A model generated the notes under the pieces. The model had not been told where the DNA came from. It was given only the letters and a program-made list of their open reading frames with translations, and did not search any database. 64,000 bases of DNA, from the NCBI RefSeq assembly GCF_008017455.1, contig NZ_VRTY01000018.1:1-64000 (forward strand), in the 5' to 3' direction. Below, in pieces: positions 11,462 to 40,836 of this stretch. The translations under genes and the position numbers were made by a program. Each line of letters starts with the position of its first letter. Positions within the stretch are counted from its first letter, which is position 1. The DNA comes from Pontibacter qinzhouensis. Lineage in GTDB: Bacteria > Bacteroidota > Bacteroidia > Cytophagales > Hymenobacteraceae.

Positions 11462-14400
11462 ATGAAAAATTTACTACTACAAAGTAGTAAGGTTTTGCTG
11501 TTGTTGGCAGCCGCCAATGTAGCAGGCCCGGCAGCAGCAAACGCCACTTTACATACACCGACTTCTCTTTCTGCAACTATACACCTTCAAGCTAAACTGC
11601 AACCACTGCAAAACCCTATCACAGGCAAGGTGACTTCTGCTAAAGGAGAGCCGCTGCCAGGTGTAACAGTAGTGCTGAAAGGAAGCAGTACAGGTACTAT
11701 TACTGATCTCGATGGCAACTTTAGCCTGCCATTAAACCAAAACAACGGCACCCTTGTCTTCTCTTATGTTGGCTATCAGACAAAGGAACTGGCCTATACC
11801 GGGCAGCAGCGCCTGCGGGTAAGCCTGTCAGAAGATGCCAGGGCCTTGAGTGAGGTGGTAGTAGTGGGCTATGGAATGCAGGAGCGTAAAAACCTGATTG
11901 GCTCCATCGCCAAAGTAGATCCATCAGAGACAAAAGGAATAGCCGTAGGTAGCCTCGATGCGCAGTTGCAGGGCAAGGTGGCAGGCGTGCAGATTTCCTC
12001 TCCGACGGGTGTGCCGGGAGAGGCCTCTAACATTCGTGTGCGCGGCGCTACCTCCATCAACGCCAGTAACGATCCGCTTTATGTAATAGACGGGGTGTTC
12101 ATCAACGGTAACAGCCTCCAAACCTTAAATACTGGCGGCAAGGCTACTTCTCCTATAGCAGACATTAATCCTTCCGATATTGAAAGTATTGAGGTACTAA
12201 AAGATGCTACCGCAACAGCCCTTTATGGGGCAAGGGGAGCAAATGGTGTGGTAATCGTAACAACCAGGCGTGGAAATTACAATCAGAAACCAAAAATATC
12301 CTTCAATACCTCTCATGGCTGGGCGAAAGCGGTAAAGCTGTGGGACCTGACCACAGGTCCGGAACATGCCGAACTGGTAAATGAGCATTGGGTCAATACC
12401 GGCCTGGATAATCCTGCGCTGAACAGGACAGAAGCAAACAGGCCTTACCGCCCGGTAGCGGAAGGCGGCAGGGGGCTGCCGGAAGAGCAGCAGACTTACG
12501 ACAGGTTAAGCGAGGTATTCCGGACGGCCGCTATCCAGAACTATGACTTATCCCTGAGTGGGGGCACCAGCACTACTAAATACTATATCAGCGGGGGCTA
12601 CACGAACCAGGAATCCATTTTAAAGCCAATCGGGTTTGAACGGGCCAGTTTTAAAGTAAACCTCGACCAGAACGTTAGCGATAAGGTAAAAGTAGGAACC
12701 AGCAACTCCTTCTCCAGGACCGTGCGCAACCAGGGCAGGGCAGGAGACGGTCCGCGCGGCGGGCTGCTGCAGGCGGCCCTGCACTCGCCTACGGTTTTGT
12801 CGCCATACAATGCGAGCGGTGAACTTGTTGGCCGGGCCGGTTTCGATAACGTAACGCTGCTGCTGGAGAACTACGATGTAAACACCACCAGCTTGCGCTA
12901 CATTGGCAACCTGTATGCGGAGGCGGAACTGCTGCCAAACCTGAAATTTAAAACAAGCTTCGGCGTAGATTATAATAATTACGACGAGTCGGAGTACTGG
13001 AACACCTTCTTAATTGAAGGAAGTCAGGGAGGTCTGGCCACCTCCAGCCTCACCCAATATTCCAGCCTGCTAAACGAGCAGACGCTGTTTTATAAGAAGA
13101 CGCTGAGCGAGAAACATACACTAGGCGTACTGGTGGGAAATACCCTGCAGAAAGACGTGCTTTCCCGCACCTACGCCGAGGGCAGGGGCTTTGCTAACAA
13201 TGAGTTCAAAATCATTTCCTCAGCTGCCACAACGCTCGGCTCCCAAAGCTGGTCTGCCAATACGCTGGCTTCCTTCTTCTCCAGAATAGACTATAACTAT
13301 GGCGGCAAGTACTTGCTCGATATTAGCTTCCGGGCAGATGGTTCCTCCCGCTTTGGGGCAAACAATAAGTGGGGCTATTTTCCGGCGGTTGGCGCTGCCT
13401 GGCGTGTAAAAGAAGAGAACTTCCTGCGGGATGTGGAGGCGCTGAGCGACCTGAAGCTAAAAACCAGCTACGGTATTACCGGCAACCAGGGTGGCATCAG
13501 CAACTTTGCGGCCCAAGGCCTCTGGACAGGCGGTACTCCCTATCAGGATAATCCGGGTACAGCGCCACAGCAACTGGGCAATCCCGACCTGAAGTGGGAG
13601 GAGACCCGGCAGTTTAACCTGGGCTTAGAAGCTGGCTTTATCAACAACAGGCTGGCCCTGGAGGCAAATGTGTACCATAAATACACCACCAACGGGCTGC
13701 TCCAGATACCGCTCCCTGCCACCACCGGCTTCAGCTCTTACTGGAGCAATGCCGCTGAGATCAGCAACAAAGGCTTTGAGCTGGGCATCAACTCCGTTAA
13801 CGTCAACACAAACGACTTTACCTGGTCTACCAGTTTTAACATTGCCCGCAACATCAACAAGATTGAGAAGCTGGAAAACCCCTTGCGCTATGGCAGCCGC
13901 GACCTTATTCTGCAGCAGGAAGGGCACCCGCTGTACTCGTTCTGGGTCTATAACCAACTCTACGTAGACCCACAGACAGGCGATGCCGTGTACGAAGATG
14001 TGAACCAGGACGGCCGGATTACAACAGAAGACCGGCTGATTGTGGGCGATATCTGGCCCAAATATTTTGGTGGTCTTACCAACAACTTCACCTATAAAGG
14101 CTTCGACCTCTCGGCATTTCTGGCTTTCCAGTTTGGCAACAAAGTATATAACCATAATGCTTTCTTTGGCGAGGCAGGCGGGGCCCGCGATGAGGCCCGC
14201 GTTATTTTTGCCAACAACCTGAACAGGTGGCAGCAGCCAGGCGACATAACCGATGTGCCCCGCATAGATGGCATTAATATCAACAACTATCGCGATGGGG
14301 GTAGCCGCTGGCTGGAAGACGGTTCCTTTGTGCGTCTGCGCTCTCTGAACCTGGGCTACACCCTGCCGAAGAACCTGACAGAGAAACTGCACCTAGAAAC

Positions 14401-14563
14401 GCTGCGACTTTACTTCTCCGGCACCAACCTGTTCCTGCTTACACAATACACCGGGGCAGATCCCGAATCAAGCGCCAGCTCATCGCCCAATGCACAAGGC
14501 ATCGACTTAGGAACGCCGCCACAGCCACGTACCCTGCAGTTCGGCCTGAACCTGACTCTTTAA
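11462..14563 (+). CDS. SusC-like TonB-dependent outer-membrane transporter (cassette 1)
   Basis: 1033 aa outer-membrane porin of the SusC/RagA family, which imports ligands captured by a SusD lipoprotein using TonB energy. Signal peptide 1-26. A carboxypeptidase-D regulatory-like domain (about 50-125, ITGKVTSAKGEPLPGVTVVL) precedes the TonB box region. The plug (about 140-260) carries DAQLQGKVAGVQI, RVRGATSINASNDPLYVIDG and IESIEVLKDATATALYG. The C-terminal barrel ends with the typical TPPQPRTLQFGLNLTL. It is first gene of a susC-susD-doxX-doxX operon, 55 bp before susD1. Downstream Sox-like genes suggest a sulfur-containing ligand rather than a glycan, which is inference. Confidence 0.93.
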   Translation: MKNLLLQSSKVLLLLAAANVAGPAAANATLHTPTSLSATIHLQAKLQPLQNPITGKVTSAKGEPLPGVTVVLKGSSTGTITDLDGNFSLPLNQNNGTLVFSYVGYQTKELAYTGQQRLRVSLSEDARALSEVVVVGYGMQERKNLIGSIAKVDPSETKGIAVGSLDAQLQGKVAGVQISSPTGVPGEASNIRVRGATSINASNDPLYVIDGVFINGNSLQTLNTGGKATSPIADINPSDIESIEVLKDATATALYGARGANGVVIVTTRRGNYNQKPKISFNTSHGWAKAVKLWDLTTGPEHAELVNEHWVNTGLDNPALNRTEANRPYRPVAEGGRGLPEEQQTYDRLSEVFRTAAIQNYDLSLSGGTSTTKYYISGGYTNQESILKPIGFERASFKVNLDQNVSDKVKVGTSNSFSRTVRNQGRAGDGPRGGLLQAALHSPTVLSPYNASGELVGRAGFDNVTLLLENYDVNTTSLRYIGNLYAEAELLPNLKFKTSFGVDYNNYDESEYWNTFLIEGSQGGLATSSLTQYSSLLNEQTLFYKKTLSEKHTLGVLVGNTLQKDVLSRTYAEGRGFANNEFKIISSAATTLGSQSWSANTLASFFSRIDYNYGGKYLLDISFRADGSSRFGANNKWGYFPAVGAAWRVKEENFLRDVEALSDLKLKTSYGITGNQGGISNFAAQGLWTGGTPYQDNPGTAPQQLGNPDLKWEETRQFNLGLEAGFINNRLALEANVYHKYTTNGLLQIPLPATTGFSSYWSNAAEISNKGFELGINSVNVNTNDFTWSTSFNIARNINKIEKLENPLRYGSRDLILQQEGHPLYSFWVYNQLYVDPQTGDAVYEDVNQDGRITTEDRLIVGDIWPKYFGGLTNNFTYKGFDLSAFLAFQFGNKVYNHNAFFGEAGGARDEARVIFANNLNRWQQPGDITDVPRIDGININNYRDGGSRWLEDGSFVRLRSLNLGYTLPKNLTEKLHLETLRLYFSGTNLFLLTQYTGADPESSASSSPNAQGIDLGTPPQPRTLQFGLNLTL

Positions 14564-14618
14564 TTGGGCTTTTCAGCCAAAAAGGTAAACAGTTTTTACA
14601 TTTTTAATTCTTGATTTC

Positions 14619-15980
14619 ATGAAAAGTATATATGCGTATCAGCCTCTAAAAAAACAATTCCTGGTCGTGCTCCTGCTTCTTGGTTTCAGCTCCTGCGAGG
14701 AGTTCCTGAATGTAAAGCCAGCTGAGTCGGTGTCGGATGAGGTGACCATTGTAAACAAGCTTTCGGCTGAAACAGCGGTTAGGGGCGTATACAGTGCCTT
14801 GGCCAGCGGTAGTTACTATGGCACATCCTTCCAGTCGATCGGCTACCTCTCCGGCGACAATGTGCAATGGACGGGCTCGCAGTCGCAGGTGCAGGAATTT
14901 ATCAACCACCAGGTAAACGCAGAGAACTCCACCATCGGCAGTGCCTGGGTGGCTATCTACCGTACCATAAACCGGGCAAACAATGTTATCAGCAAAGTGC
15001 CTGCTGTTGCCGATCCAACCTTTACGCAGGAGCAGAAGAACCAGCTGGTTGGGGAAGCCTATTTTATCAGGGCATTAGCCTACTTCGACCTGGCCCGCAC
15101 TTTTGGCGGTGTCCCGATCATTACAGCACCTACTATTTCTCCAACAGATAACCGGGGTATAGCCCGCGCCTCCGTGGACGAGACGTACGCCCAGGTTCTG
15201 AGCGATCTGGAGGCGGCAGAACCTTTGCTGTCGCTCACAACCGACAGGTACCGGGCTACCCGCAAAACAGTATGGGCCCTGAAGGCGCGCTATTACCTGT
15301 ACCGCCAGAATTGGGAGCAGGCAGAGGAGTTTGCTTCCAAACTGATCAGTGATTCAGATTTCAGGTTATTGAAGCCATACAGCGCTTTTTTCGCGGGTAA
15401 TGTGCGGGGAACGCAGGAGTCGGTATTTGAGGTGTTTTACAATGGTACCACCGAGGTGAACGGCCATCGCAACCAATGGCAGCCACAGGCGAACGGCGGC
15501 ACGCGGCAATGGGCACCCAGCGATGCCGTTATCGCCCTACTAAACAACCCGGAGATAGGTGGTAACCGGAATGTGCTGGTGGCCCAGGACAACCAGAACC
15601 GCTGGTACGGCACCCTCTACTACCGCACACCGGGATCCGACCCCTCTTATATTTTCAGGATAGCCGAACTGTACCTGATACGGGCGGAGGCCCGGGCACA
15701 GCGCGATAACCTGGCAGGCGCAAAAGCAGACCTGGATGCGGTGCGCGACAGGGCCGGGCTGGCAGGCGCAGCCGCTGCAAGCAAAGCAGACCTGCTGCTG
15801 GCGATAGAGGATGAGCGGCGGGTAGAATTCGCGCAGGAGCCGCATCGGTGGTTCGACCTGGTGCGTACCGGCCGCGCTCCTGCCGTGCTCAACATAAGCG
15901 ACGAAAACCGCCTGGTGTTGCCCATTCCTATAGACCAACTGCTGGCCGACAAGGCGCTGCAACAGAACCTGGGTTACTAA
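14619..15980 (+). CDS. SusD/RagB-family nutrient-binding lipoprotein (cassette 1)
   Basis: 453 aa surface lipoprotein partner of SusC1. Lipobox ...LGFSSC with the lipidated Cys26. The SusD N-terminal region EEFLNVKPAESVSD is followed by TPR-like helices (EAYFIRALAYFDLARTFGGVPI). The C-terminal signature is present as RIAELYLIRAEARAQ, ERRVEFAQEPHRWFDLVRTG and the closing LPIPIDQL...QNLGY. The start at 14619 gives a slightly long n-region. Ligand specificity cannot be read from the sequence. Confidence 0.93.
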   Translation: MKSIYAYQPLKKQFLVVLLLLGFSSCEEFLNVKPAESVSDEVTIVNKLSAETAVRGVYSALASGSYYGTSFQSIGYLSGDNVQWTGSQSQVQEFINHQVNAENSTIGSAWVAIYRTINRANNVISKVPAVADPTFTQEQKNQLVGEAYFIRALAYFDLARTFGGVPIITAPTISPTDNRGIARASVDETYAQVLSDLEAAEPLLSLTTDRYRATRKTVWALKARYYLYRQNWEQAEEFASKLISDSDFRLLKPYSAFFAGNVRGTQESVFEVFYNGTTEVNGHRNQWQPQANGGTRQWAPSDAVIALLNNPEIGGNRNVLVAQDNQNRWYGTLYYRTPGSDPSYIFRIAELYLIRAEARAQRDNLAGAKADLDAVRDRAGLAGAAAASKADLLLAIEDERRVEFAQEPHRWFDLVRTGRAPAVLNISDENRLVLPIPIDQLLADKALQQNLGY

Positions 15981-16026
15981 GAGGCTGCCTTGCCGCGGCA
16001 ATTTTAAAACTTAAAAAAACAAAAAC

Positions 16027-17451
16027 ATGGCTACAGTCGAAACACCGCATACGTCACACAAGCGAGAGGTCGCTGAAACTGCGCCAGACCTGCAAGGCAG
16101 GCAGTCCGGAACAGGCTGGAGTGAAACAGAAAAGATAGCATTCCGTTTTTTCGCCATCTACTTTTTCCTGCAGGCTGTGCCGCTGGACTGGAAGTATTTC
16201 CAAAAGTTGCTGTCTGTGAACTGGCTCGACCTGCACTTTCGCGATATCTTCTACATCAGCCGCTATACTCCCCGTTTCTTCTCTGGAGAGGCCGCAGGCT
16301 GGGGCATCGGCACCTTTACCGATTGGGCTGGCATTGCTGTGGTGGCTGCTATCGGAGCCGCGTTCTGGACCTATCGCGATCGCGATAGCCAGGGTTATAA
16401 GAGATTGTACTACAGCCTGCGGGTGCTGCTACGCTACCGGCTGGCGGCCGCCTTGCTGGCTTATGGCTTCATCAAGTTTTTCCCGATGCAGATGCCGTAT
16501 CCTTCGCTCAGCAACCTGAACACGAACTACGGCGATCTCACCGCCTGGAAAATTTTTGCCATGAGTGCGGGTATTGTGCCGGGTTACCAGTCGTTTCTGG
16601 GGCTGGTAGAGATACTGGGGGCACTTTTCCTGCTTCACCGCAAGACCACCATTATCGGGCTGCTCATTATCCTGCCTTTTCATGGCAACGTGTTTATGTC
16701 GAACCTGGCCTATGAGGGGGGGGAGCACGTGTATAGCTTGTACCTGATCAGTATCGCCTTATTCCTGCTGGCGTATGATGTGCCGCGGCTGTACGATTTG
16801 CTCGTGCTGCAGCGCCCGGCCAAACCAAGTAGCTTAAAGCCGGTATTTACGGCAGGTTACCTCAAAACGAGCCGGCTGCTGTTGAAAACCGCTTTTATTT
16901 TCTTCTTTGTGTTTGTGTACGGGTACAAGACCTATGCCAGCTACCGCACCGGCCCTTATCATTACCCTGCCACGCCCGGTTTGGCCAATGCTGCCGGCCT
17001 GTACAATGTAAGCGAGTTCCGCCTGAACGGGCAGCCGATTCCATACTCCAAAACTGACCCACAGCGCTGGCAGGATGTGGTGTTTGAGGAGTGGAGTACA
17101 CTGAGCATAAAATCGAACCGCCCGGTGCAACTGGAAACGGCAGATACAGAAGAAATAGCTGGCGAGCAGGAAGCCCGACCTTACGAAGAAGCGGGTGCCG
17201 CCGGCCGGCATTATTACCAATACACTGTCGATACGGCACAAAAGGTACTGGTGCTGGAAAACAAGAACAGGCATCACCAGGGAGAGAAGTTTACCTTAAA
17301 ATACACCCGCCCCGCCGCCACCCGCATTATCCTGTCTGGCGTGAACGAGCAGCAGGATTCTGTTTACGTGGTGCTGGACAAACTGGATAAGAAATATTTG
17401 CTTGAGGAGGTAGACAAACGCGGCGGCAGAAGAGGAGAATTTAAACTCTGA
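16027..17451 (+). CDS. Large DoxX-like membrane protein, cassette 1, first copy
   Basis: 474 aa membrane protein with a DoxX/DoxD-like core. DoxD is the membrane part of archaeal thiosulfate:quinone oxidoreductase, and DoxX-family proteins are small quinone-linked membrane proteins. About seven hydrophobic segments lie between residues 38 and 300. The DoxX-like core reads RYRLAAALLAYGFIKFFPMQ, then GYQSFLGLVEILGALFLL. A soluble C-terminal part (about 310-474) carries SEFRLNGQPIPYS, RWQDVVFEEWSTLSIK and DSVYVVLDK, which are shared by all four paralogues of this window. I do not recognise that C-terminal domain. 46 bp after susD1, same operon. Confidence 0.75.
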   Translation: MATVETPHTSHKREVAETAPDLQGRQSGTGWSETEKIAFRFFAIYFFLQAVPLDWKYFQKLLSVNWLDLHFRDIFYISRYTPRFFSGEAAGWGIGTFTDWAGIAVVAAIGAAFWTYRDRDSQGYKRLYYSLRVLLRYRLAAALLAYGFIKFFPMQMPYPSLSNLNTNYGDLTAWKIFAMSAGIVPGYQSFLGLVEILGALFLLHRKTTIIGLLIILPFHGNVFMSNLAYEGGEHVYSLYLISIALFLLAYDVPRLYDLLVLQRPAKPSSLKPVFTAGYLKTSRLLLKTAFIFFFVFVYGYKTYASYRTGPYHYPATPGLANAAGLYNVSEFRLNGQPIPYSKTDPQRWQDVVFEEWSTLSIKSNRPVQLETADTEEIAGEQEARPYEEAGAAGRHYYQYTVDTAQKVLVLENKNRHHQGEKFTLKYTRPAATRIILSGVNEQQDSVYVVLDKLDKKYLLEEVDKRGGRRGEFKL

Positions 17452-17479
17452 GGCGCAACAGGCACATAAGCGGTAAACC

Positions 17480-17602: not shown

Positions 17603-19270
17603 ATGATGTCTAAAACAGAAAATTCACCAGTTCTGGCAGTACCAAAGCCTCACCTGGCGGTAGAGCCGGTGCCGAAGGAGGCAACAGCTGCGACCGGACC
17701 GCAGGTACCAGCCTGGCAAGCGTACGAAAAGTTAATTTTCAGGATAACGTTTATCTTCTTCGTTAGCCTTTGCATTCCCAATAGTGCCAGTTGGTACAAG
17801 CACATGGTGTCGATTGATTGGGCCAGCCTGCACTACCGCGACTTGTACGACATTGCCCGCTTCGGCTCCGGTATCGACTTTTTCGGGAACACGCTGTTCG
17901 GCAGCAGGCTCAACGGATATGCCAACTGGATTATCACGTTTCTTGTCGCCCTTGCCGGTGGCTTCATCTGGACGGTAATAGACAAAATCAGGAAGCCTTC
18001 GCCTTCAGATTATAACCTGCTCTACTACTGGCTGCGTACCATCGTGCGGTATCGGGCAGGAATCGGTATCATCGGGTTTGGTTTTACCAAAGTGCTGCCT
18101 GTGCAGATGCCTTTCCCTTCGCTAGGACTGCTGGAAACCAGTTTCGGTGATTTAACGGCGCAGAAAATATACTGGCTCTCCATCGGTATTGTGCCCTGGT
18201 ACCAGATTTTTGCAGGCGTGGTAGAGGTAACGGCAGGTACGCTGTTGCTTTTCCGCCGCACTACCACCATTGGAGCTATATTGCTTTTCGGTGCGCTGGG
18301 CGATATTGTGTATGTGAACTTTGCCTACGATGGCGGAGTACATGTGTACAGCTCCTATTTCGTGCTGCTGTCAGCTTTCCTGCTGGCACAGGACGTGCCG
18401 CGGCTGTACCGTCTCTTTATTCAGGAGCGCCTTACCGTGCCCGTTAATTTTTATCCTTCCTTCTCCAAAAAATGGCAGCAGTATGCCCGGGTGGGTATAA
18501 AGGCGGGTTTGCTGTTTGTTTTTCTGGGGCTGTTCTTTTATTACCAGCTCATCAATTTCCTGTACGACCCTTACAAACAGCCTTCTACAGCTGGCGTAAA
18601 AGAGTTGCGGGGCACCTTTGCCGTGTCTGAGTTTCGCCTCAATAACCAGCTCATCCCTTACTCGCCACTGGACACGGTGCGTTGGCAGAGCGCCACGTTC
18701 GAGAACTGGACCACGCTTACCTTTAAGGTGAACCGCCCGGTGCCGCTCGATCTGTCGAATGGCGGAGGCTCCCCGATGCGTGACATCAACCGGACCTTTG
18801 AGGTATCTGGTGTTGGCGGAGGGCAGCGGGTATTCCACTACTATGCCGACACTATTGAGAATGTGCTGTACCTGCAGGATAAATACTTTCCGTTTCAGGG
18901 TCGCCGCAACAGGGTGGCCAACGTGCGCAGCGACGGAGGCCAGAATAACCTCAGCACCGATAAAAACCAGCAGGCCGGTTTAGCCCTGAACGCAGCCGAT
19001 TGGATACCAGCCACGGCTTGTGCTAACATTGGCGACGAAAATAAGGTGATCCACCCGCTTGCCGCCTCCACCAGACGTGACCGGGAATTTGCCGAAGCCC
19101 AGAGAAACGAGGAACGCAACCGGATGGTGTTGCACTACAAGACAACAGATGGCAACAGAGTTATTCTAACGGGTATCAACGAAAACAGCGATTCCCTATA
19201 TGTAGTGCTCGATAAGGTAAACAGGAAATACGCGCTTTCAAAAAGTACGCTGCAGGCCGGAAAATATTGA
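17603..19270 (+). CDS. Large DoxX-like membrane protein, cassette 1, second copy
   Basis: 555 aa, the longest of the four paralogues. The same membrane core is present (RYRAGIGIIGFGFTKVLPVQ, then WYQIFAGVVEVTAGTLLLFRR) with about seven hydrophobic segments. The C-terminal domain keeps SEFRLNNQLIPYS, RWQSATFENWTTL and DSLYVVLDK. It is split by an extra stretch of roughly 70 polar residues (about 430-505) after LYLQDKYFPFQG, absent from the first copies. ATG-ATG start, and either Met is possible. A GC-rich hairpin 30 bp after the stop suggests the operon ends here. Confidence 0.75.
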   Translation: MMSKTENSPVLAVPKPHLAVEPVPKEATAATGPQVPAWQAYEKLIFRITFIFFVSLCIPNSASWYKHMVSIDWASLHYRDLYDIARFGSGIDFFGNTLFGSRLNGYANWIITFLVALAGGFIWTVIDKIRKPSPSDYNLLYYWLRTIVRYRAGIGIIGFGFTKVLPVQMPFPSLGLLETSFGDLTAQKIYWLSIGIVPWYQIFAGVVEVTAGTLLLFRRTTTIGAILLFGALGDIVYVNFAYDGGVHVYSSYFVLLSAFLLAQDVPRLYRLFIQERLTVPVNFYPSFSKKWQQYARVGIKAGLLFVFLGLFFYYQLINFLYDPYKQPSTAGVKELRGTFAVSEFRLNNQLIPYSPLDTVRWQSATFENWTTLTFKVNRPVPLDLSNGGGSPMRDINRTFEVSGVGGGQRVFHYYADTIENVLYLQDKYFPFQGRRNRVANVRSDGGQNNLSTDKNQQAGLALNAADWIPATACANIGDENKVIHPLAASTRRDREFAEAQRNEERNRMVLHYKTTDGNRVILTGINENSDSLYVVLDKVNRKYALSKSTLQAGKY

Positions 19271-19587: not shown

Positions 19588-20226
19588 ATGTTATCAGTAC
19601 CAAACTTTTTAAAGCGCGTGAGAGGATCCGGGAATAGAAGCTTACTGCTCTTGATGCCCCTCTTGCTGCTTTTTGCCTGCAGGAGCAGAGATGCGGCTAT
19701 AGAAGAGCTTCAGAACAGCCGTGATGCGGCAGCCATAGCCGAAACAGAAGACTGGCCGGCCACTTTTGGTTTCGGCAAAGCAGCCACAGCAAGCCAAATC
19801 GCCTTACTCGACACGGATGTGCGTCCAGACGGGCGGGGGCTGCCTGTCGGAAGTGGTGACGTAGTGACAGGCAGGAAACTTTATGCAGCCAAATGTGCTG
19901 CCTGCCATGGCGCCACCGGCACCGAAGGTCCTTTCGACAAACTGGTTACAGCAGCCGGTGCAAGAGGCAACAATGGTAAAACGATTGGCACATACTGGCC
20001 CTATGCCACCACGCTCTACGACTATATTAACAGGGCGATGCCCTTTAATGCTCCCGGCTCTCTTACACCTGATGAAGTGTATAGCTTAACCGCCTACCTG
20101 CTACATGCCAACAATATATTGCCAGCAGATGCCGTGATGACAGCACAAAGCTTACCGCAGGTGCAAATGCCGGCAAAAGAACGCTTCATAACAGACGACA
20201 GAAAAGGCGGAGCAGAGGTACGTTAA
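19588..20226 (+). CDS. Lipoprotein c-type cytochrome, SoxD-like
   Basis: 212 aa monohaem cytochrome c. A hydrophobic N-terminus ends in LLLFAC (lipobox, Cys31), so it is probably membrane-anchored. The haem motif is CAACH (Cys103, Cys106, His107). The likely axial Met is in NRAMPFNAPGSLTPDEVYSL, and the tail contains SLPQVQMPAKERF. This stretch matches the cytochrome part of SoxD, the partner of sulfane dehydrogenase SoxC. Classical SoxD has two haems; only one is present here. The SoxC-like gene follows by 120 bp, so the pair probably passes electrons from the Mo centre to the respiratory chain. Confidence 0.85.
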   Translation: MLSVPNFLKRVRGSGNRSLLLLMPLLLLFACRSRDAAIEELQNSRDAAAIAETEDWPATFGFGKAATASQIALLDTDVRPDGRGLPVGSGDVVTGRKLYAAKCAACHGATGTEGPFDKLVTAAGARGNNGKTIGTYWPYATTLYDYINRAMPFNAPGSLTPDEVYSLTAYLLHANNILPADAVMTAQSLPQVQMPAKERFITDDRKGGAEVR

Positions 20227-26758: not shown

Positions 26759-27305
26759 GGCATATTAAATAGAGTTATACTTTAAATTTACGAATTTATT
26801 ACTTTTCAGATATGATTATTTGTTTTTGCCTAACATAGTCATTGGATTAGCAAAGCCTTTAGTTTCGATCTACTTATCCTGTCAAGAAATATTAAACAAC
26901 TGGTATCACAAATAATTAACTGATGTTATCCAAAGGTCAATTCAGATTAAAAAAATAAAAATTTAGAATAAGATTTTGAGGAATAATTATTTTATGTATA
27001 TTTGTCTACTATTCCTATAGACATAAAATATTTTATCAGATAATTGTTTTATAGGCGATATGGAAAATAAAACTTTACACCAATTTAATTTGGCTCCTGC
27101 AGCTCTTCATCTTAGGATGTTTATTTATGTAGTGGATTCGATATGTTGTTGATTTTCAATGAATTTTGTCCTGAATACATAAGCTGTTAATCAGGATAAA
27201 AACAGCCTAAAAAGCTATAGAATGCGCCCTGGCGCTACTTTAAGCAGATAAAGCAAGTGGCTCTATCTGGAAATCAAAATCAACAAAAACCAAACATCAG
27301 AAACC
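26759..27305. other. Gap between the TA island and the PLP-fold gene
   Basis: AT-rich 547 bp, divergent. The rightward promoter with the shared motif is at 26976-27022. The 284-nt leader that follows has no clear ORF or riboswitch; GCGCCCTGGCGC near 27225 is a small GC palindrome. The antitoxin promoter must lie near 26800 but was not identified. Confidence 0.5.
26976..27022 (+). promoter_or_regulatory. Promoter with shared operator-like motif, PLP-fold gene 1
   Basis: TTG (26976-26978), an 18-nt spacer, TATATTTG (26997-27004), then GTCTACTATTCCTATAGAC (27004-27022). The last 19 bases differ at a single position from the susC1 copy and have the same offset from the -7 box, although the downstream genes are unrelated. 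The downstream sequence ATAAAATA also matches. Confidence 0.75.
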
Positions 27306-32574: not shown

Positions 32575-32624
32575 TTTGGATATGCTTAACAAGTTTGTTT
32601 TATTTGCATACTAATTCTATAGAC
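32575..32624 (+). promoter_or_regulatory. susC2 promoter with shared operator-like motif
   Basis: TTTG (32575-32578), a 20-nt spacer, TTTATTTG (32599-32606; one mismatch to TAnnTTTG), then GCATACTAATTCTATAGAC (32606-32624). This is the third plus-strand copy of the motif. The start codon of susC2 is about 720 bp downstream, because repeats have lengthened the leader. Confidence 0.65.
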
Positions 32625-32982
32625 ATAATGTTTATGAAATATAAAAACACATCAACCTTATTACTAGCGTCAACAGTAACTACTGTGGCCGGGCGGCTTT
32701 ATAGTCGTTGTTGTTAATTAATCCCTTCCTTGTTCCCCGTACACTTTACCTTCCACCACCATCTCTAACATTAGCTTAATCTTTAGCTACATCTTACTTT
32801 CTAACCCAAACCCATTTTTTGTAAATAAATATATACAATTATGAAGAGTCAAAGCCAGTGCTGCTAGAAAACTAAAGGCATCCGGATAAAGTTATGCCGG
32901 GTTCAGTTTCAATTATTCTAATGAAAATGCTCCTTTTGGAGGATTTTGAGATGTTAGACACTAGCCCCTAGATATTAGATGC
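32625..32982. other. Long leader of susC2, left part
   Basis: AT-rich, without a gene. It contains an R1 copy (32911-32946) and a TTAGACACTAGCCCCTAGAT-type run that recurs at 42307-42345. A short sequence AATGTTTATGAAATATAAAA follows the promoter; a small leader ORF there cannot be excluded. Confidence 0.45.
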
Positions 32983-33260: not shown

Positions 33261-33307
33261 GCTTTCCCTTTTCATCGCCTCTGGAACAGGCAAAGAATCG
33301 GGAAAGC
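33261..33307 (+). promoter_or_regulatory. Leader hairpin of susC2 (shared with susC1)
   Basis: GCTTTCCC (33261-33268) pairs with GGGAAAGC (33300-33307). The inner GCCT (33277-33280) pairs with AGGC (33288-33291) around CTGGAAC. Same architecture and distance to the ATG as 11380-11427. The A-run before it (9 A) is also kept. Confidence 0.55.
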
Positions 33308-33342
33308 CGGGAAAATTAACTGCAACCAAATTTAAGTAAATT

Positions 33343-36300
33343 ATGAAAAGACTACTACAAAAAAGTAGCCATATATTGGTATTGCTTGTACTTTACCAAT
33401 CAAATTCATTGGCCTATGCCGCAAAACCTTCCTTAAACCTCTCTAAAACTAAAAATATTGTTACACCTGCCGTTGAAGTAAGAGAAAATATAACGGGCAA
33501 AGTAGTGAGCGCTACCGGCGAACCACTGCCGGGCGTAACAGTTCTGGTAAAAAATACCAACCTGGGAACCACTACAGGTGTAGACGGTAGTTTCGAGTTG
33601 GCAGTTCCTAATCCTACCGATGTGCTTGTCTTCAGCTTTGTTGGCTTTGCTTCCAGGGAAATTCCGCTGAACAATCAAAAAACCATCCAGGTAACCTTGC
33701 AGGACGATTCAAAAGCGTTAGGCGAAGTAGTAGTAGTGGGTTACGGCACACAAAACCGTAAAAGCCTGGTTGGTGCTATTGTAAAAGTAGATCCGAAAGA
33801 AACGACACAAATACCGGTGGCAAGTTTCGATGCGCAGCTGCAGGGAAGAGCCGCAGGCGTGCAGGTAAATACGTTTTCAGGTACTCCGGGAGAGGGCGTA
33901 AAAGTACAGGTAAGAGGAACAGCCTCCATCAATGCCAGCAACGATCCTTTGTATGTAATTGATGGGGTACTTGTAAACAACAACCCGCTGTCGACTATCA
34001 ACCTCGGCGGAAAGCAAACATCGCCGCTGGCAGACATAAATCCTGCCGATATAGAAAGTATAGAAGTTCTGAAAGATGCCAGCGCTATTGCCATTTATGG
34101 CTCCATGGGCTCGAACGGGGTTATACTGGTTACCACAAAAAGAGGAGAGTACAGTACCGGCAAAGCCAGGTTTAACCTCGATATTTCGCAGGGCTGGCAG
34201 CAGGCAGACAGAGGCAGGCTTTGGGAATTAACCACTGGTCCTGAGCACGCCATGCTGGTAAACGAGCAGTGGGTAAATTCAGGGTTTGATAACCCGGCAT
34301 TAAACCAAACGTATGCCAACCGGCCGTTCCGGCCTGCAGCTGAGGTTATAAACGGTGTGCCTGGCCGGGGAACTCCCGAAGAACAGCACACCTACGATAG
34401 GATGGGCCGGGTTTTCAGAACAGCGCAGACCAAAAATTATGATCTTAATGTGCAGGGAGGCAGTGAGAATATCCGGTATAACATCGGGGCAGGCTACACA
34501 AACCAGGAAGGTATTCTGAAACCGGCCGAATTTGAGCGTGCCAGTTTTAAGCTGAACCTGGATACAAAGCTTAGCAGCAAAATAACCTTCAGCTCCAGCA
34601 ATGGCGTTTACCGTTCGTTCAGACAACAGGTAAGGGGCGGAGCCGGGCAGCAGGCGGGTCATTTGCTGGCAGCGCTGCATCACCCCACCTACCTGCCTTT
34701 AACCAACGAAGACGGCACGCTGGCAAGGGGATCCATTTACGAAAATATCGATAACCTGACCAATACCGATGTTACTAATATTTCTACCAGGAGCATCCGC
34801 TACATAGGCAACCAGTTTGTAGAAGTCCATATTGTGCCGGGCCTGCGCTTTAAATCTTCTGTTGGGTTAGATTATAACTATTATAATGAGCGTGAGTTTT
34901 TTAACGACCAAACCATTATTGGCGGCGCTCCGAATCCTCCCGGGTATAAGCATGAGGTCTTCACTAACCTGGCTGTTTTTCAAAACGAACAGACGCTGTC
35001 TTATACCAAGAGTTTACTTGCTAATCATAACATAACAGTGCTGCTGGGCAACAGCATTCAGAGCAGCACCATTAATGTGGCCTCAGAAACCGGTTCGGGC
35101 TTTCCTAATAATTCATTTCAGCAAATTTCTGCAGCGGCTAACAGAACAGCTGAGCAAAGTAAATCCATCTCTACCATCGCGTCTTTTTTCGGGAGGGTAA
35201 ATTATAACTTCAGCGACAAGTATTTCCTGGAAGGCACGCTGCGGGCAGACGGCTCTTCAAAATTCGGCTCTAACAACCGCTGGGGATATTTCCCGGGTAT
35301 AGGCGCTTCCTGGCGAATGAAACAGGAAAATTTCCTGAGCAATGTAGACCCTGTCTCTGAATTGAAATTAAGAGTAAGCGCCGGATCGGCAGGCAACCAG
35401 AATGGCATCAACGACTACGCATCGCGCGGGCTATGGTCTGGCACCGCCCAATACCCCGATAACCTGACCAGCGGACCCAGAGCCGGTATAGCCCCCTCAC
35501 AACTGGAGAACCCCGATTTGAAGTGGGAAAAAACAACCACCTATAACGCTGGCCTCGACCTGGGTTTATTTAACGACCTGGTGATGGTAAACATTGACGC
35601 TTACTATAAATATACTACCGATGCCCTGCTTTATTTGCCGGTGCCATTAGCGACTGGCTATGGAAGCACGCTGGCCAATGCCGGAGAGGTAAGTAACAAG
35701 GGAATTGAAGTAGCCCTTTCGACCATAAACATAAGAAAGAATGATTTTGAGTGGAGTACGCATTTCAACTTTTCCAGAAACGTAAATCGTGCCGAAAAGC
35801 TGATTAGCCCCATTACATTCGAAGCACGCGAGTACAGAAGAACAGAGGAAGGCGCTGCTCTTGGAAGTTTCTGGCTCTACAAGCAGCTTTACGTGGATAC
35901 TGAAACCGGGAATGCCGTTTTTGATGATGTAGATAAGGACGGGAAATTAACACAGGCTGACCGCCAACTGCTTGGCAACCTGATCCCGAAATTCTTTGGC
36001 GGCCTTACCAATACCTTTTCTTACAAGGGCTTCGATGTAAACGTGTTGCTTACTTACCAGTACGGTAACTCCGTCTTTAACTTTAACAGGTATATACTGG
36101 AAGGCGGCGGTACAAGAGATGCCTCCCGCTCCATTCTGAAAAGCCAGCTGGACCGTTGGCAAAAACCCGGCGATATAACCAGTACTCCACGCGTAACAAG
36201 TGTAGGCAACAATTACAATATAGAGCAGAACAGCAGGTACCTGGAAGACGCTTCTTTTATCAGGGTTAAAACAGCTTCCCTGGGTTACAACTTGCCCGAA

Positions 36301-36492
36301 AGAGTTACAGCACGCCTGGGGTTAAACAGAGTCAGGGTATATGCCCTGGGCACAAACCTCTGGATTGCAACCAAATATACCGGGGCTGATCCTGAATCTT
36401 CGGGTAGTGCCGGGCAAAACCTTGACGGGTTGGATACTGCTACTCCGCCTCAACCCCGTGGACTTCAGTTCGGTGCCAACATTTCATTTTAA
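33343..36492 (+). CDS. SusC-like TonB-dependent outer-membrane transporter (cassette 2)
   Basis: 1049 aa paralogue of SusC1. Signal peptide 1-26, carboxypeptidase-D-like domain (ITGKVVSATGEPLPGVTVLV), plug with DAQLQGRAAGVQVN, VRGTASINASNDPLYVIDG and IESIEVLKDASAIAIYG. The barrel ends in PPQPRGLQFGANISF. It stays close to SusC1 over the plug and over much of the barrel (for example the GGLTN..YKGFD region), but loops differ, so the two may take related ligands. 10 bp before susD2. Confidence 0.93.
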   Translation: MKRLLQKSSHILVLLVLYQSNSLAYAAKPSLNLSKTKNIVTPAVEVRENITGKVVSATGEPLPGVTVLVKNTNLGTTTGVDGSFELAVPNPTDVLVFSFVGFASREIPLNNQKTIQVTLQDDSKALGEVVVVGYGTQNRKSLVGAIVKVDPKETTQIPVASFDAQLQGRAAGVQVNTFSGTPGEGVKVQVRGTASINASNDPLYVIDGVLVNNNPLSTINLGGKQTSPLADINPADIESIEVLKDASAIAIYGSMGSNGVILVTTKRGEYSTGKARFNLDISQGWQQADRGRLWELTTGPEHAMLVNEQWVNSGFDNPALNQTYANRPFRPAAEVINGVPGRGTPEEQHTYDRMGRVFRTAQTKNYDLNVQGGSENIRYNIGAGYTNQEGILKPAEFERASFKLNLDTKLSSKITFSSSNGVYRSFRQQVRGGAGQQAGHLLAALHHPTYLPLTNEDGTLARGSIYENIDNLTNTDVTNISTRSIRYIGNQFVEVHIVPGLRFKSSVGLDYNYYNEREFFNDQTIIGGAPNPPGYKHEVFTNLAVFQNEQTLSYTKSLLANHNITVLLGNSIQSSTINVASETGSGFPNNSFQQISAAANRTAEQSKSISTIASFFGRVNYNFSDKYFLEGTLRADGSSKFGSNNRWGYFPGIGASWRMKQENFLSNVDPVSELKLRVSAGSAGNQNGINDYASRGLWSGTAQYPDNLTSGPRAGIAPSQLENPDLKWEKTTTYNAGLDLGLFNDLVMVNIDAYYKYTTDALLYLPVPLATGYGSTLANAGEVSNKGIEVALSTINIRKNDFEWSTHFNFSRNVNRAEKLISPITFEAREYRRTEEGAALGSFWLYKQLYVDTETGNAVFDDVDKDGKLTQADRQLLGNLIPKFFGGLTNTFSYKGFDVNVLLTYQYGNSVFNFNRYILEGGGTRDASRSILKSQLDRWQKPGDITSTPRVTSVGNNYNIEQNSRYLEDASFIRVKTASLGYNLPERVTARLGLNRVRVYALGTNLWIATKYTGADPESSGSAGQNLDGLDTATPPQPRGLQFGANISF

Positions 36493-36502
36493 ATTCAAGA
36501 TC

Positions 36503-37819
36503 ATGAAAAAGATATCTATAGTTCCGTTGCTATTCCTGTTTAGCTTTTTTCTATCGTCCTGCGAAAATTTCCTGGATGTAGAATCTTTCGACAAGGTGTC
36601 TGACGCAAATACCATTTTTGATAAAGCATCAGCAGAAACAGCCGTAAGGGGTGCCTACCGCTCTCTGGCCAGTTCCAATTACAGCAGCGGTTTCCAGAAC
36701 ACTATTTTGCAATCTGGCGGCGATGTACGCTCATTAAATAATGCGCAGACCGACCTGAATGTAATTAATTATGCCTTGCGGTCAGACATTGGGTTTGTGT
36801 CTACTTATTGGGGCAACTTCTACAACACCATAAATAGGGCGAACCATGTCATCGAAAAAGTGCCTTTGGTGAATGACGTAGCCCTTACTGCCGATTTGAA
36901 AAACCAGCTTTTAGGGGAAGGATATTTTATCAGGGCCTACTCTTATTTCGATCTGGCCCGCGTGTATGGTAATGTGCAGCTTTTTTTTACCCCTACCAAA
37001 GTGGTTGCAGACAAACTAGGCGTTGATAAAAGTCCGCAGGCAGTGGTGTATGCGCAGGTGCTGGCCGACTTAAACAAGGCGGAGGAGTTACTGCCACTAA
37101 CGGTCGTACGAAACAGGGCCACCAGGTATACGGTGTATGCCCTAAGAGCCAGGCTGCATCTTTATCAGAACAAATTCGAGGAGGCAGAGCAGGATATCAA
37201 TAGCATATTGGCCAACAATAACTACCGTTTAATCAAGCCTTTTAACCTGGCAGCAGGTACAACAGAATCTGTGCTGGAGTTTTCTTACAGCGTAAATGAT
37301 CTGAACGCCGGCTATGGTTTATGGAACACCAGCAACAGGCAGCTGGAGCCCAAAGCGGAACTGCACAACCTGTTAAACGATGAGGCAGTGGGCGGGGGCA
37401 GAAAGATTCTTTCTGTCAGAAACGCAGCAGGCCAGTTTATTGGCGGCATCTACCCGACCAATACAGCTGCAGCCTATGGCATCAGAACAGCAGAGCTTTA
37501 CCTGATCAGGGCTGAAGCACGTGTCAAAAAAGCGAACCCGGATCTGGCCGGCGCTCTCAGCGACCTGAACCTGGTGCGGGACAGGGCAAATGTGGCAGCC
37601 AGTACTGCCGCTACCAAGGATGAAATTGTGCTGGCAATCGAAAATGAGCGAAGGGTGGAATTTGCGTTAGAGCCGCACAGGTGGTTCGATATTGTGAGAA
37701 CAGGCAGAGCGCCTGCAGTTTTCAATTTGAACGATTCTAACAGGTACATTTTCCCGATACCAGCGGGAGAGATTCTGGCAAATTCATCCTTAACGCAAAA
37801 CCCCGGTTACGGGAATTAA
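36503..37819 (+). CDS. SusD/RagB-family nutrient-binding lipoprotein (cassette 2)
   Basis: 438 aa. The open frame begins at 36341 inside susC2, but the signal sequence MKKISIVPLLFLFSFFLSSC starts at 36503, giving lipidated Cys20, so that start is used. SusD features: ENFLDVESFDKVSD, GEGYFIRAYSYFDLARVYGN, AELYLIRAEARVKK and ERRVEFALEPHRWFDIVRTG, as in SusD1. It ends 31 bp before the first DoxX-like gene. Confidence 0.93.
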   Translation: MKKISIVPLLFLFSFFLSSCENFLDVESFDKVSDANTIFDKASAETAVRGAYRSLASSNYSSGFQNTILQSGGDVRSLNNAQTDLNVINYALRSDIGFVSTYWGNFYNTINRANHVIEKVPLVNDVALTADLKNQLLGEGYFIRAYSYFDLARVYGNVQLFFTPTKVVADKLGVDKSPQAVVYAQVLADLNKAEELLPLTVVRNRATRYTVYALRARLHLYQNKFEEAEQDINSILANNNYRLIKPFNLAAGTTESVLEFSYSVNDLNAGYGLWNTSNRQLEPKAELHNLLNDEAVGGGRKILSVRNAAGQFIGGIYPTNTAAAYGIRTAELYLIRAEARVKKANPDLAGALSDLNLVRDRANVAASTAATKDEIVLAIENERRVEFALEPHRWFDIVRTGRAPAVFNLNDSNRYIFPIPAGEILANSSLTQNPGYGN

Positions 37820-37850
37820 CCGATTCGTTTCTACTTAATCGTTTTAAGAT

Positions 37851-39266
37851 ATGAGCTCTATAGATTCAAAACCGGCTGGTTTTAGCTGGAGAGAAGTGTT
37901 GCGCCATTTCGGCAGCATTGCAAAGCCAAACCAGGTGCATCAGGCCTGGAAGCCCTGGGAACGGGTCCTATTTCGTTTCGTTTTCATATTACTTTCCTTA
38001 CTCGTGCTCCCGATTGACTGGAAGTTTTACCGCGACCTTTTTTCAGTAAACTGGGCACAGCTGCATTTTCATGAGTTGTTTACCTTAACCAAATACCAGG
38101 TACAGTTTATTCCGCAGGAGCATTTGCCTGAGTCAGGAATCGGGGCATTCGCCAACTGGGGAATTGCACTGCTTGTTGCGGTGGCAGGCACTTTGGCCTG
38201 GAGCACCGTCGATAAAAAGCGGCAGGAATACACCGTGCTTTATTATTGGCTTCGGGTGGTGGTGCGCTACAGGCTGGCTATTGTATTAACAGCTTATGGC
38301 TTTATTAAACTGTTTCCTTTACAGATGCCTTACCCATCGTTAAGTAACCTGCTCACGAACTATGGCGATTTTTTTGCCTGGAAAGTATATTTCCAGACAG
38401 TCGGGATTGCACCCAAGTACCAGTCGTTTTTAGGCTTTGTAGAGATAGTTGCTGCGTTCTTACTGATTAACCGGAGAACCGTAACATTTGGTGTAGGCCT
38501 GATTTTCGGTTTCATTGGCAATGTAGCGGTCGTAAACGGCCTTTACGATATTGGTGAGCTGACCTTAAGCAGTCTTATCGTGTTGCTGGCCGTATTTCTG
38601 TTTGTGTATGATATACCGAGGTTATATAATCTCCTGATTAAAGAGGGACCGACCTATGCGAATAAATTAATTCCGGACTTCTCTGATGAGGTATTACGCA
38701 AGATGAGGTTGAGTTTAAGAACGGCTTTCCTGTTTTTTGTGCTGCTCTTCGGCTACAAAACCTTCGATAACTTTGTAACAGACCCCTATAAAGTGCCTCA
38801 TACGCCGGGTTTGGAAAACGCCTATGGCTACTACAGTGTACAGGAGTTTGTTCTGAACCGGGATACTATTCCTTATTCCAAGACAGACCCGAATCGCTGG
38901 CAGGATGTCGTGTTTGAAAAATGGTCGACCTTGACTATTAAAGTGAACCGCCCGGTTAAAATCGATTTCACAAGTGCAGAAGCTTTTCATGAACACGACA
39001 TTGACCGGAACTATGAACTGGCCGGCCATGCAGGCCGGCACTATTTCTATTACGAAGCAGACACGGTAAACCAGACGCTCTTACTTCAGAACAAAAACAG
39101 AAACCACCGGGATGAAAAGCTGCAGCTGACCTACAAAAGGCCGGATGAGAATACGCTGGTGCTATCCGGAAAAAACGAGAACAACGATTCCATTCATGTG
39201 GTGCTGAAAAAGATACACAAGAAATACATGATGTTTGAAGGAAGACGAAAGCCTGTTAAAATATAA
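37851..39266 (+). CDS. Large DoxX-like membrane protein, cassette 2, first copy
   Basis: 471 aa, the counterpart of 16027-17451 with the same positional identity. Core: RYRLAIVLTAYGFIKLFPLQ followed by KYQSFLGFVEIVAAFLL. The C-terminal region has QEFVLNRDTIPYS, RWQDVVFEKWSTLTIK and DSIHVVLKK. About seven hydrophobic segments. The second of its kind starts 37 bp after its end. Probable quinone- or sulfur-linked inner-membrane component, by analogy to DoxD only. Confidence 0.75.
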   Translation: MSSIDSKPAGFSWREVLRHFGSIAKPNQVHQAWKPWERVLFRFVFILLSLLVLPIDWKFYRDLFSVNWAQLHFHELFTLTKYQVQFIPQEHLPESGIGAFANWGIALLVAVAGTLAWSTVDKKRQEYTVLYYWLRVVVRYRLAIVLTAYGFIKLFPLQMPYPSLSNLLTNYGDFFAWKVYFQTVGIAPKYQSFLGFVEIVAAFLLINRRTVTFGVGLIFGFIGNVAVVNGLYDIGELTLSSLIVLLAVFLFVYDIPRLYNLLIKEGPTYANKLIPDFSDEVLRKMRLSLRTAFLFFVLLFGYKTFDNFVTDPYKVPHTPGLENAYGYYSVQEFVLNRDTIPYSKTDPNRWQDVVFEKWSTLTIKVNRPVKIDFTSAEAFHEHDIDRNYELAGHAGRHYFYYEADTVNQTLLLQNKNRNHRDEKLQLTYKRPDENTLVLSGKNENNDSIHVVLKKIHKKYMMFEGRRKPVKI

Positions 39267-39303
39267 AGAAAAGGAATTGGGAAACATCTAACCAGAGCGC
39301 ATC

Positions 39304-40836
39304 ATGTCAACAAAACAAATACATATTGAAGCTCCTTATAAGGAGGAGATTTCTAGTTCTTTCACTTCCTTAAAACAGGGCAGGAGACCGGGAGAATGGA
39401 CACAAATACAGAAAGTAGCCTTCCGGGTAGCGTTTTTATACATCCTGTTTTTGTGTATACCCACTTACCCCAGGTTTTATACACATTTATTCGGGCTGGA
39501 ATTCTCAAAAATAACCTATCATGATTTTCAGAGTGTTGTAGCATTCTGGCCGCCACAGATTATTCTGATAGAGTCGGAGGAGGGTGTTTTTGGGTTATTG
39601 AATTACATTAACCTGATTCTCGTGTTTATCGGCGCTGTGATAGGGGGAGGCATCTGGACCATTCTCGACAAAAAATCAACGCAGTACCGCAGCTTATATT
39701 ACTGGATTCGGGTGCTGGCACGCTACCGCCTGGCTTTCGGCATGGTTGGCTGGGGATTAAAAAAAGCGTTTCCGATGCAAATGGTCTACCCAACAGAAGG
39801 TATGCTGAATACGCCTTTTATCGATTTTGCTGAAAAGAAGCTGTATTGGTCGCATGTGGGCATCTCGTTTGAGTACACGGTTTTCCTGGGCTTTGCGGAA
39901 ATCCTGCCGGGCCTGCTCTTGTTGCATAGGAAAACCTCTGTGCTGGGGGCAGCTTTAGCGGCGGTAGTAACATTTAATATCTGCATCGCCAACCACGCCT
40001 ACGATGCCGGTGTGGCAGTTCCGGCAGCGTATTTTGCTATACTGGGTATTTTTATTGCCTGGTACGACCTGCCTAACATCTGGAACCTGCTCGTAAAAGA
40101 AAAAGACGTCCTGAAGCCTGATCGCTATAACCCGGTGTTTACTCAGAAATGGCAGAAAACGTTGGTGAATACATTAAAATGGACTTCGATTTTCCTTTTT
40201 GTGCCTGTTGCGGCAGCGATGTGGGCGTATGGCTTTTTTAACGGGAATAACTACAATATACCAAGCACGGCAGGTCTTGCCGAAACAAAAGGCCTGTATC
40301 AGGTAACGGAGTTTCGCCTGAACAACGAAGTGGTACCTTACTCCCCAACAGACTCATTAAGGTGGCAGGATGCCATATTTGAAGACTGGTCTTCGCTGAG
40401 CTACAAAACAAACAGAGCCGCAATTGCCGACCGCATGATCGGTTACTCGCCGCTACGGGTAAAGAACGATAAGCAGAACACGACGCTGAACCAGGTAAAT
40501 ACCCAGGACTCTGATAACCTGGCCAAAGCAAAAAAGAATCGTGATCTGGGTGTTACCCGCTGGGAAGTAGGAGGGATGGCCGGTGAACGGCGCTACTTTT
40601 TTTACAAGGCCGATACAGTAAACCAGGTTTTGTACCTTCAGAATAAAAATAAGAACCATGCCGACGAAACGCAGGTATTGCATTACAGCAGGCCCAGCAC
40701 TTCACGGATTATACTGCGTGGCCTGAACGAATTTAACGATTCGATTTATGTAGTTTTAGATAAGCAGGCTAAAAAGTATCCGCTGGTAGAAGGAAGGCAA
40801 ACGCACTTACAAGAATTTAAGGAGGCCGGGTTTTAA
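39304..40836 (+). CDS. Large DoxX-like membrane protein, cassette 2, second copy
   Basis: 510 aa, the counterpart of 17603-19270. Core: RYRLAFGMVGWGLKKAFPMQ, then EYTVFLGFAEILPGLLLLHRK. The C-terminal domain carries TEFRLNNEVVPYS, RWQDAIFEDWSSL and DSIYVVLDK. An insertion of about 40 polar residues (SPLRVKNDKQ...DLGVTRWEVGG) sits near the place where the cassette 1 paralogue is also expanded, so second copies appear to differ from first copies in this loop. Its stop codon abuts a nested foldback repeat. Confidence 0.75.
   Translation: MSTKQIHIEAPYKEEISSSFTSLKQGRRPGEWTQIQKVAFRVAFLYILFLCIPTYPRFYTHLFGLEFSKITYHDFQSVVAFWPPQIILIESEEGVFGLLNYINLILVFIGAVIGGGIWTILDKKSTQYRSLYYWIRVLARYRLAFGMVGWGLKKAFPMQMVYPTEGMLNTPFIDFAEKKLYWSHVGISFEYTVFLGFAEILPGLLLLHRKTSVLGAALAAVVTFNICIANHAYDAGVAVPAAYFAILGIFIAWYDLPNIWNLLVKEKDVLKPDRYNPVFTQKWQKTLVNTLKWTSIFLFVPVAAAMWAYGFFNGNNYNIPSTAGLAETKGLYQVTEFRLNNEVVPYSPTDSLRWQDAIFEDWSSLSYKTNRAAIADRMIGYSPLRVKNDKQNTTLNQVNTQDSDNLAKAKKNRDLGVTRWEVGGMAGERRYFFYKADTVNQVLYLQNKNKNHADETQVLHYSRPSTSRIILRGLNEFNDSIYVVLDKQAKKYPLVEGRQTHLQEFKEAGF

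Follow-up and report, generated by a model that had tools for sequence, protein, structure and literature searches.

Outer-membrane import systems of the SusCD/RagAB type are read as carbohydrate importers nearly by default, and the DoxX/DoxD superfamily includes the thiosulfate:quinone oxidoreductase DoxDA and the mycobacterial DoxX complex. Canestrari et al. (2020) reportedly claim, going by the title, cysteine-responsive attenuation in mycobacteria. For Actinobacteria, the available part of a further report describes polycysteine leader peptides ahead of cys operons, with runs of cysteine (Cys) codons near the stop, no conserved terminator and possible Rho sites (PMC1262725). Leader-peptide-like open reading frames (ORFs) also appear in transcriptome studies of Flavobacterium and Bacteroides, cysteine not being named as a signal in the parts available (PMC9723704, PMC7366714). 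In Salmonella, YeiH is the main sulfite-resistance factor and is needed for sulfite resistance, according to the accessible part of the report (PMC12880088). Here we analyse a 64-kb stretch of the Pontibacter qinzhouensis genome (contig NZ_VRTY01000018.1, positions 1 to 64,000; the window), in which a cassette of four genes, encoding SusC, SusD and two membrane proteins here called DOX1 and DOX2, is present twice. Our data suggest each cassette probably being a sulfur-scavenging import system of a cysteine-starvation response rather than a carbohydrate importer.

The order SusC-SusD-DOX1-DOX2 is found in the ORFs at 11462-19270 (cassette A) and 33343-40836 (cassette B), all on the forward strand, just as the sequence-only reading had placed it. 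The SusC/RagA TonB-linked outer-membrane transporters at 11462..14563 in cassette A (TIGR04056 894.9 bits, TIGR04057 64.8 bits) and at 33343..36492 in cassette B (TIGR04056 838.5 bits) both exceed the curated TIGR04056 cut-off of 368.25 bits. They are followed by SusD-like lipoproteins at 14619..15980 and 36503..37819, both above the PF07980 and PF14322 cut-offs and with a lipoprotein signal read by eye; in cassette B the ORF opens at 36341, the signal begins at 36503, and the latter is most likely the start. DOX1 is encoded at 16027..17451 and 37851..39266 and DOX2 at 17603..19270 and 39304..40836. Between the cassettes, identity amounts to 50% for SusC, 46% for SusD, 49% for DOX1 and 32% for DOX2. 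The cassettes share their SusC and SusD family assignments with SusCD/RagAB import systems and differ from these in having no glycosidase in the window, in their partners, i.e. the DOX pair and sulfite genes, and in their cysteine-type leaders. From sequence, we class the cassettes as a variant of SusCD systems, and gene linkage and leaders give good support to a role in sulfur metabolism.

The linkage is already visible in the window. Cassette A is followed on the forward strand by genes for a cytochrome c (19588..20226; PF00034), a SoxC-type molybdenum sulfite dehydrogenase (20347..21615; TIGR04555 473.8 bits, cut-off 420), a carotenoid-desaturase-like FAD (flavin adenine dinucleotide) oxidoreductase (21842..23296, start estimated; PF01593) and a YeiH-family membrane protein (23341..24639; PF03601 175.5 bits). 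The dehydrogenase resembles the SoxC/SorAB sulfite dehydrogenases in its TIGR04555 match and its adjoining cytochrome c gene and differs from them in lying under the SorA and SorT model cut-offs. The YeiH-family protein shares the PF03601 family with the Salmonella resistance factor and differs from it, as far as the latter is described in the available part of its report, in lying in a SusCD operon and in staying under the TIGR00698 cut-off (84.2 vs 232.6 bits). The best NCBIfam match of the FAD oxidoreductase, CrtO, is far under its cut-off, and no signal sequence was seen by eye. Cassette B is followed by a TIGR01777 (YfcH-type) oxidoreductase gene at 41199..42122 on the forward strand (240.5 bits, cut-off 207).

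A search of genome contigs counted 222 relatives, and the 80 best-scoring ones were read. The proposed search across Bacteroidota bore out the gene order, which recurs in these 80, mostly with the FAD enzyme and a YeiH-family protein: clusters around DOX in the 80 relatives and the window hold SusC in 76 loci, SusD in 72, the FAD enzyme in 61, YeiH relatives in 50, and cytochrome c and the sulfite dehydrogenase in 39 each. In seven Chitinophaga loci the cytochrome c and dehydrogenase genes lie upstream of susC, with no leader found ahead of the unit. Of 98 non-core operon genes, 54 were scanned after thinning of repeats, along with three from locus L159, giving 57 in all. Among the 25 of 74 families listed for these 57, rhodanese is the commonest with four members, followed by Cys/Met enzymes and TauE with two each, while a type 2A encapsulin, a sodium:sulfate symporter and GH92 have one each. 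L159 has a siroheme-synthesis gene and a TauE relative upstream of its cassette and, downstream, a gene for a metallo-beta-lactamase/rhodanese protein.

The second line of evidence comes from the leaders. Short ORFs ending in TGY codons were first sighted while the susC leaders were read, and short ORFs with at least three consecutive Cys are present upstream of 31 of the 76 cassettes, compared to 12 of 1520 shuffled sequences, 3 of 76 reverse-strand regions and one among 15 other susC genes. Our main rule demanded at least three Cys in the last nine residues of an ORF within 450 nt upstream of susC, two too-short regions being dropped. By this rule, 36 of 74 cassettes have a Cys-rich leader, versus 12 of 337 other units and none of the 74 reverse strands, and a looser rule by which two Cys suffice gives 42/74 versus 31/337. 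Among all 20 residues the enrichment is specific to Cys, the next commonest residue, Leu, reaching 23/74 versus 90/337. Counted per transcription unit, leaders precede 33 of 77 units with DOX and 16 of 347 others, this count having misplaced 10 cassette susC genes (four of them leader-positive) among the others via broken ORF calls, which the susC-based count moves to the cassettes. Of the 12 non-cassette units with a leader, at least four belong to one of these kinds: susC genes, a Cys/Met-type gene, or a dioxygenase next to a cassette. Four cassettes fetched later are evenly divided, with leaders in L159 and L161 and none in L160 and L162.

In the window, the leader ORF of cassette A (11094..11192, forward strand) is clear, encoding 32 amino acids that end in NRICCCC, and that of cassette B (32634..32717, forward strand; ATG at 32634 chosen by eye, listed ORF start 32595) encodes 27 amino acids ending in LYSRCC. 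Two further leader ORFs precede genes for Cys/Met-metabolism proteins, one at 27060..27152 on the forward strand (ending in VDSICC and supported by its position after a palindrome), the other at 52114..52212 on the reverse strand (ending in MTDTCCCC). What makes the window leaders stand out is that each lies within about 70 bases after a rare palindrome.

Cys-rich leaders extend beyond the cassettes. The cysH operon of the same genome, with two PF01507 genes and cysN recognised by eye, is preceded by a leader ending in GCCCCVC with five Cys, the sole such ORF on its strand within 9455 bases, and three of 11 other genomes with PF01507 (cysH/cysD-type) matches have leaders of six or seven Cys. 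The chance level in this survey is given by two three-Cys ORFs on reverse strands, plus another pair within one of the three leader-bearing genomes. Leaders on the cassettes, on the genome's own cysH operon and on some others suggest a leader type common to the import cassettes and to sulfate assimilation, and the Cys-rich leader ORFs link the cassettes to cysteine starvation. As far as the available part of the actinobacterial report goes, the leaders resemble those of Actinobacteria in Cys codons at the stop, no conserved terminator hairpin and possible Rho sites downstream, and differ in belonging to another phylum and in standing ahead of both a cysH operon and an operon for outer-membrane import. 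No report of cysteine-codon leader peptides controlling sulfur genes in Bacteroidota was found among the papers listed in the literature searched, a scope that most subscription papers lie outside; that such peptides control sulfur genes there is hence a prediction from sequence. The same literature contained nothing combining SusC, SusD and DoxX, nothing joining SusD, sulfite dehydrogenase and Bacteroidetes, nothing on Rrf2 together with Bacteroidetes and a sulfate regulon, and nothing with three of Chitinophaga, SusD, sulfite oxidase and DoxX.

How a leader could act on susC was examined downstream of the leader ORFs. Between leader and susC of cassette A, a possible intrinsic terminator was located at 11274..11303 (forward strand) by one rule and folding and missed by two other rules. 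Classical attenuation with a conserved terminator is only weakly indicated, as terminator-like structures follow 7 of 36 leaders with 2.5 expected and another rule finds 2 among 47 leaders. The excess of C over G in the 80 bases after the leader is on average 0.131 for the 36 leaders versus -0.006 for 337 controls (p 6e-5), and -0.023 at 38 leaderless cassette susC genes (p 5e-4 versus leaders). In the window the values are 0.21 for cassette A, 0.75 for cassette B, where a C-rich, G-poor stretch follows the leader, and 0.0 and 0.31 for the other two leader units. A hairpin common to both susC leaders, which had been put forward as a shared regulatory element, is predicted by folding at about 11380..11427 and about 33261..33308 on the forward strand; its presence is confirmed, but it is weak evidence and was rejected as a specific element, similar hairpins preceding other susC genes and other genes as well (perfect stems of at least 7 pairs within 200 nt of the start in 24/76 cassette susC, 2/15 other susC and 25/328 other units). 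Rfam at gathering thresholds yielded four tRNAs only in the window and no riboswitch in the susC leaders.

The promoter motif proposed to be shared by the cassettes proved real and rare: at up to 3 mismatches the palindrome TATATTTGNCTACTANTNCTATAGAC has four sites in the 6.2 Mb genome and none in the control. Three of these are in the window, on the forward strand, i.e. in the promoter of cassette A (11015..11040, exact match), before a Cys/Met-type gene (26997..27022) and in the promoter of cassette B (32599..32624, 2 mismatches); the fourth, on contig C69, precedes an ORF resembling by eye a TonB receptor, with no Cys-rich ORF seen adjoining it by eye. A palindrome-like site with 3 mismatches lies at 52243 near the leader of the second Cys/Met-type gene. 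The palindrome is less specific than the leader, occurring at up to 1 mismatch in 22/76 cassette regions and 32/337 others, which include some sulfur-type genes or an Rrf2 gene itself. An Rrf2 regulator (9165..9626, reverse strand; PF02082) is a candidate for binding it; the protein is above the Rrf2 superfamily cut-off, and its nearest specific NCBIfam model, CymR (NF047409), scores 84.1 bits under a cut-off of 195. Rrf2 genes are present in five of the 80 loci.

The membrane pair had been read as DoxD/DoxX of thiosulfate:quinone oxidoreductase, an assignment that gained no support. None of the four DOX proteins passes a Pfam or NCBIfam cut-off; DoxX (PF07681) and DoxD (PF04173) give no match at E<=1 for the four proteins and none at E<=0.1 for one DOX helical part, and the vitamin K gamma-carboxylase/HTTM family PF05090 matches neither the proteins nor the helical part. 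The genome's five DoxX matches are all on other contigs. Profile comparison by hhalign of the DOX helical part with shallow DoxX, DoxD and HTTM alignments made from fetched genomes was not significant (probability at most 5.5 for DoxX/DoxD and 0.7 for HTTM); the control gave 97.6 for DoxX vs DoxD but failed for DoxX vs HTTM, so that the test is of limited power. PDB sequence searches found nothing, and Foldseek against the PDB gave no match at E<=0.001 for either DOX model. DOX1 and DOX2 are paralogues, 32-49% identical in local alignments, and are membrane proteins absent from the family libraries used here. In the AlphaFold2 model of cassette B DOX1 (predicted local distance difference test 92.3, predicted template-modelling score 0.88), the predicted fold combines a helical part, perhaps DoxX-like, with a C-terminal lipocalin-like barrel; extra N-terminal helices and the barrel in the models would set DOX apart from the DoxX/DoxD superfamily, and a gene resembling DoxA was not observed. 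Proteins of roughly 430 amino acids that form a related family, scoring 165-236 bits with the DOX profile, are found at L154 8399-9709, L155 6832-8124 and L158 7109-8398 with no SusCD-DOX cassette adjoining.

The cassettes are, as judged from sequence, two anciently diverged subtypes, contrary to the earlier description as duplicates where recent duplication is meant. A tree built on 174 DOX proteins of the window and 79 relatives places DOX1 and DOX2 in clades of their own, and DOX1 of cassette A clusters with sulfite-dehydrogenase loci whereas that of cassette B clusters with loci lacking the dehydrogenase. With one locus with four DOX genes entered in both subtypes, the SoxC-type dehydrogenase is present in 38/49 subtype A and 0/31 subtype B loci and the YfcH-type gene in 0/49 and 11/31, a pattern matched by the window with cytochrome c and SoxC-type genes after A and the YfcH-type gene after B. 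Leaders occur in both subtypes (17/44 in A and 18/28 in B, window excluded). A cassette-specific SusC clade was rejected, 7 of 13 other SusC falling in the same 83-member clade of the SusC tree as the 76 cassette SusC. The four DOX genes of the genome are all within the two cassettes, with no further copy. Full-length DOX pairs were found in 5 of 395 sampled genomes of the phylum, including this one, and no such pair was found among the 49 other genomes of the genus, seven of which have weak partial matches, indicating a patchy distribution; soil and freshwater Bacteroidota of many genera carry the cassette.

In the model we propose, scarce charged Cys-tRNA would let the ribosome stall at the Cys codons of the leader, so that transcription reaches susC, the stalled ribosome acting more likely by blocking Rho than via a classical terminator; initiation at the palindrome would be under the control of a CymR-like Rrf2 protein. 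SusD would capture an organosulfur compound and SusC import it into the periplasm, where DOX1 and DOX2, their barrels facing the periplasm, may bind it as a membrane-bound, probably quinone-linked oxidoreductase releasing its sulfur in the form of sulfite or sulfane sulfur. The SoxC-type enzyme, working with cytochrome c, would oxidise sulfite in subtype A, YeiH or TauE relatives would give sulfite protection, and the freed sulfur would join the normal cys pathway. We infer the substrate, the chemistry of the DOX pair and the direction in which the YeiH relative transports. A bolder version of this model, offered tentatively and rather unlikely to hold in full, has DOX1/DOX2 as a hitherto undescribed membrane enzyme with a DoxX-like quinone-linked core and a periplasmic lipocalin barrel capturing SusCD-delivered organosulfur, whose C-S bond the enzyme would cleave or oxidise in the periplasm to yield sulfite, the cassette as a sulfur-devoted SusCD system under cysteine-leader control and polycysteine leaders as a general sulfur switch of Bacteroidota.

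The idea of a SusCD system for a sulfur compound has gained support from the linkage to sulfite dehydrogenase and YeiH-family genes, the Cys-rich leaders and the same leader type on the cysH operon. Several points weigh against it. By the main rule a leader was undetected in 38 of 74 cassettes, and 8 of the 11 other genomes with cysH/cysD-type matches have no such leader within 1.5 kb upstream. The leader of cassette B is weak with its two Cys, both strands of the window together carrying 37 short ORFs that have CC close to their end, and terminator-like structures are scarce after leaders. A sulfur role is not obvious for the FAD enzyme or for an S51-type peptidase found in 8 of 80 loci (Pfam on one representative, signal sequence by eye). 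Within the core operon, transport of the substrate across the inner membrane would have to fall to DOX or the YeiH relative, no other importer being present there, and turning sulfite into sulfate makes little sense in a starving cell except as detoxification. Finally, the argument is built on sequence throughout, in which nothing indicates a ligand of DOX.

An ordinary polysaccharide utilisation locus lying near sulfur genes by chance is highly improbable: SusCD pairs mostly belong to such loci, but glycoside hydrolases, lyases and sulfatases are absent from the 28 window proteins scanned, GH92 appears in one of the 57 non-core members among the 25 of 74 families listed, and Cys leaders lie upstream of susC. 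The gene order is not confined to the company of polysaccharide genes. The S51-type peptidase, together with two ResA/TlpA-like proteins (under cut-off) in the operon of L032, would fit import of sulfur-rich peptides or thiols resembling glutathione, phytochelatin or ergothioneine, with SusCD acting like RagAB and DOX reducing or oxidising disulfides; we regard this as unlikely, since the S51 gene is missing from 72 of 80 loci and the sulfite dehydrogenase and YeiH relatives indicate oxidised sulfur.

Much the same low probability attaches to sulfur oxidation for energy or detoxification, in which imported reduced sulfur such as thiosulfate or persulfide is oxidised, electrons pass to cytochrome c and YeiH/TauE relatives remove sulfite. 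It would account for the cytochrome c gene adjoining the SoxC-type enzyme, for the rhodaneses among the non-core members, one of them in L159, and for a possible DoxX-like core of DOX. The dehydrogenase being absent from all 31 subtype B loci and the Cys-rich leaders, which suggest control by cysteine supply, speak against it, and small anions would need no SusCD. The preferred reading, sulfur scavenging under cysteine starvation, matters in that neighbours and leaders of a SusCD cassette here indicate sulfur. Organic sulfur is much of soil sulfur, and the cassettes offer a testable handle on its acquisition by soil and freshwater Bacteroidota.

Further genes and repeats were observed around these systems. 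A TauE/SafE family membrane protein (PF01925) is encoded at 7095..7958 on the reverse strand. The two Cys/Met-metabolism proteins are predicted pyridoxal phosphate (PLP) proteins, one at 27306..28463 on the forward strand (PF01053) and one, 65% identical to it, at 50560..51711 on the reverse strand; each gene is paired with an AhpC/TSA protein (27306-29105 and 49874-51711), the two pairs flanking cassette B on opposite strands. As a genome-wide leader search, TGYTGYTGYTRR was useless with 203 matches versus 44 in the control. A short ORF at 29341-29388, ending in YCCNC, precedes an alpha/beta hydrolase gene, a relative of which in L025 carries the palindrome and adjoins a fatty-acid hydroxylase gene. 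A PhyH-family dioxygenase near a cassette (L062 3018-3824) has its own leader ORF ending in CCCCC and a perfect palindrome, and is possibly a sulfur-releasing enzyme. A TonB-receptor-like ORF at L021 18398-21310, with palindrome and a leader ORF ending in CCC and without adjoining DOX genes, may point to additional sulfur importers of the outer membrane. A direct repeat of 129 bases with 90% identity is located at 21693-21821, before the FAD enzyme gene, and at 32983-33111, within the susC leader of cassette B. The interspersed repeat AATTATTCTAATGAAAA, often adjoining a CCTTCNGNAGG-type hairpin, is frequent in the window (3025, 24883, 29331, 32911, 41094, 43585, 43815, 55558 and others) and present 708 times in the genome at up to 1 mismatch, with 0 in the control.

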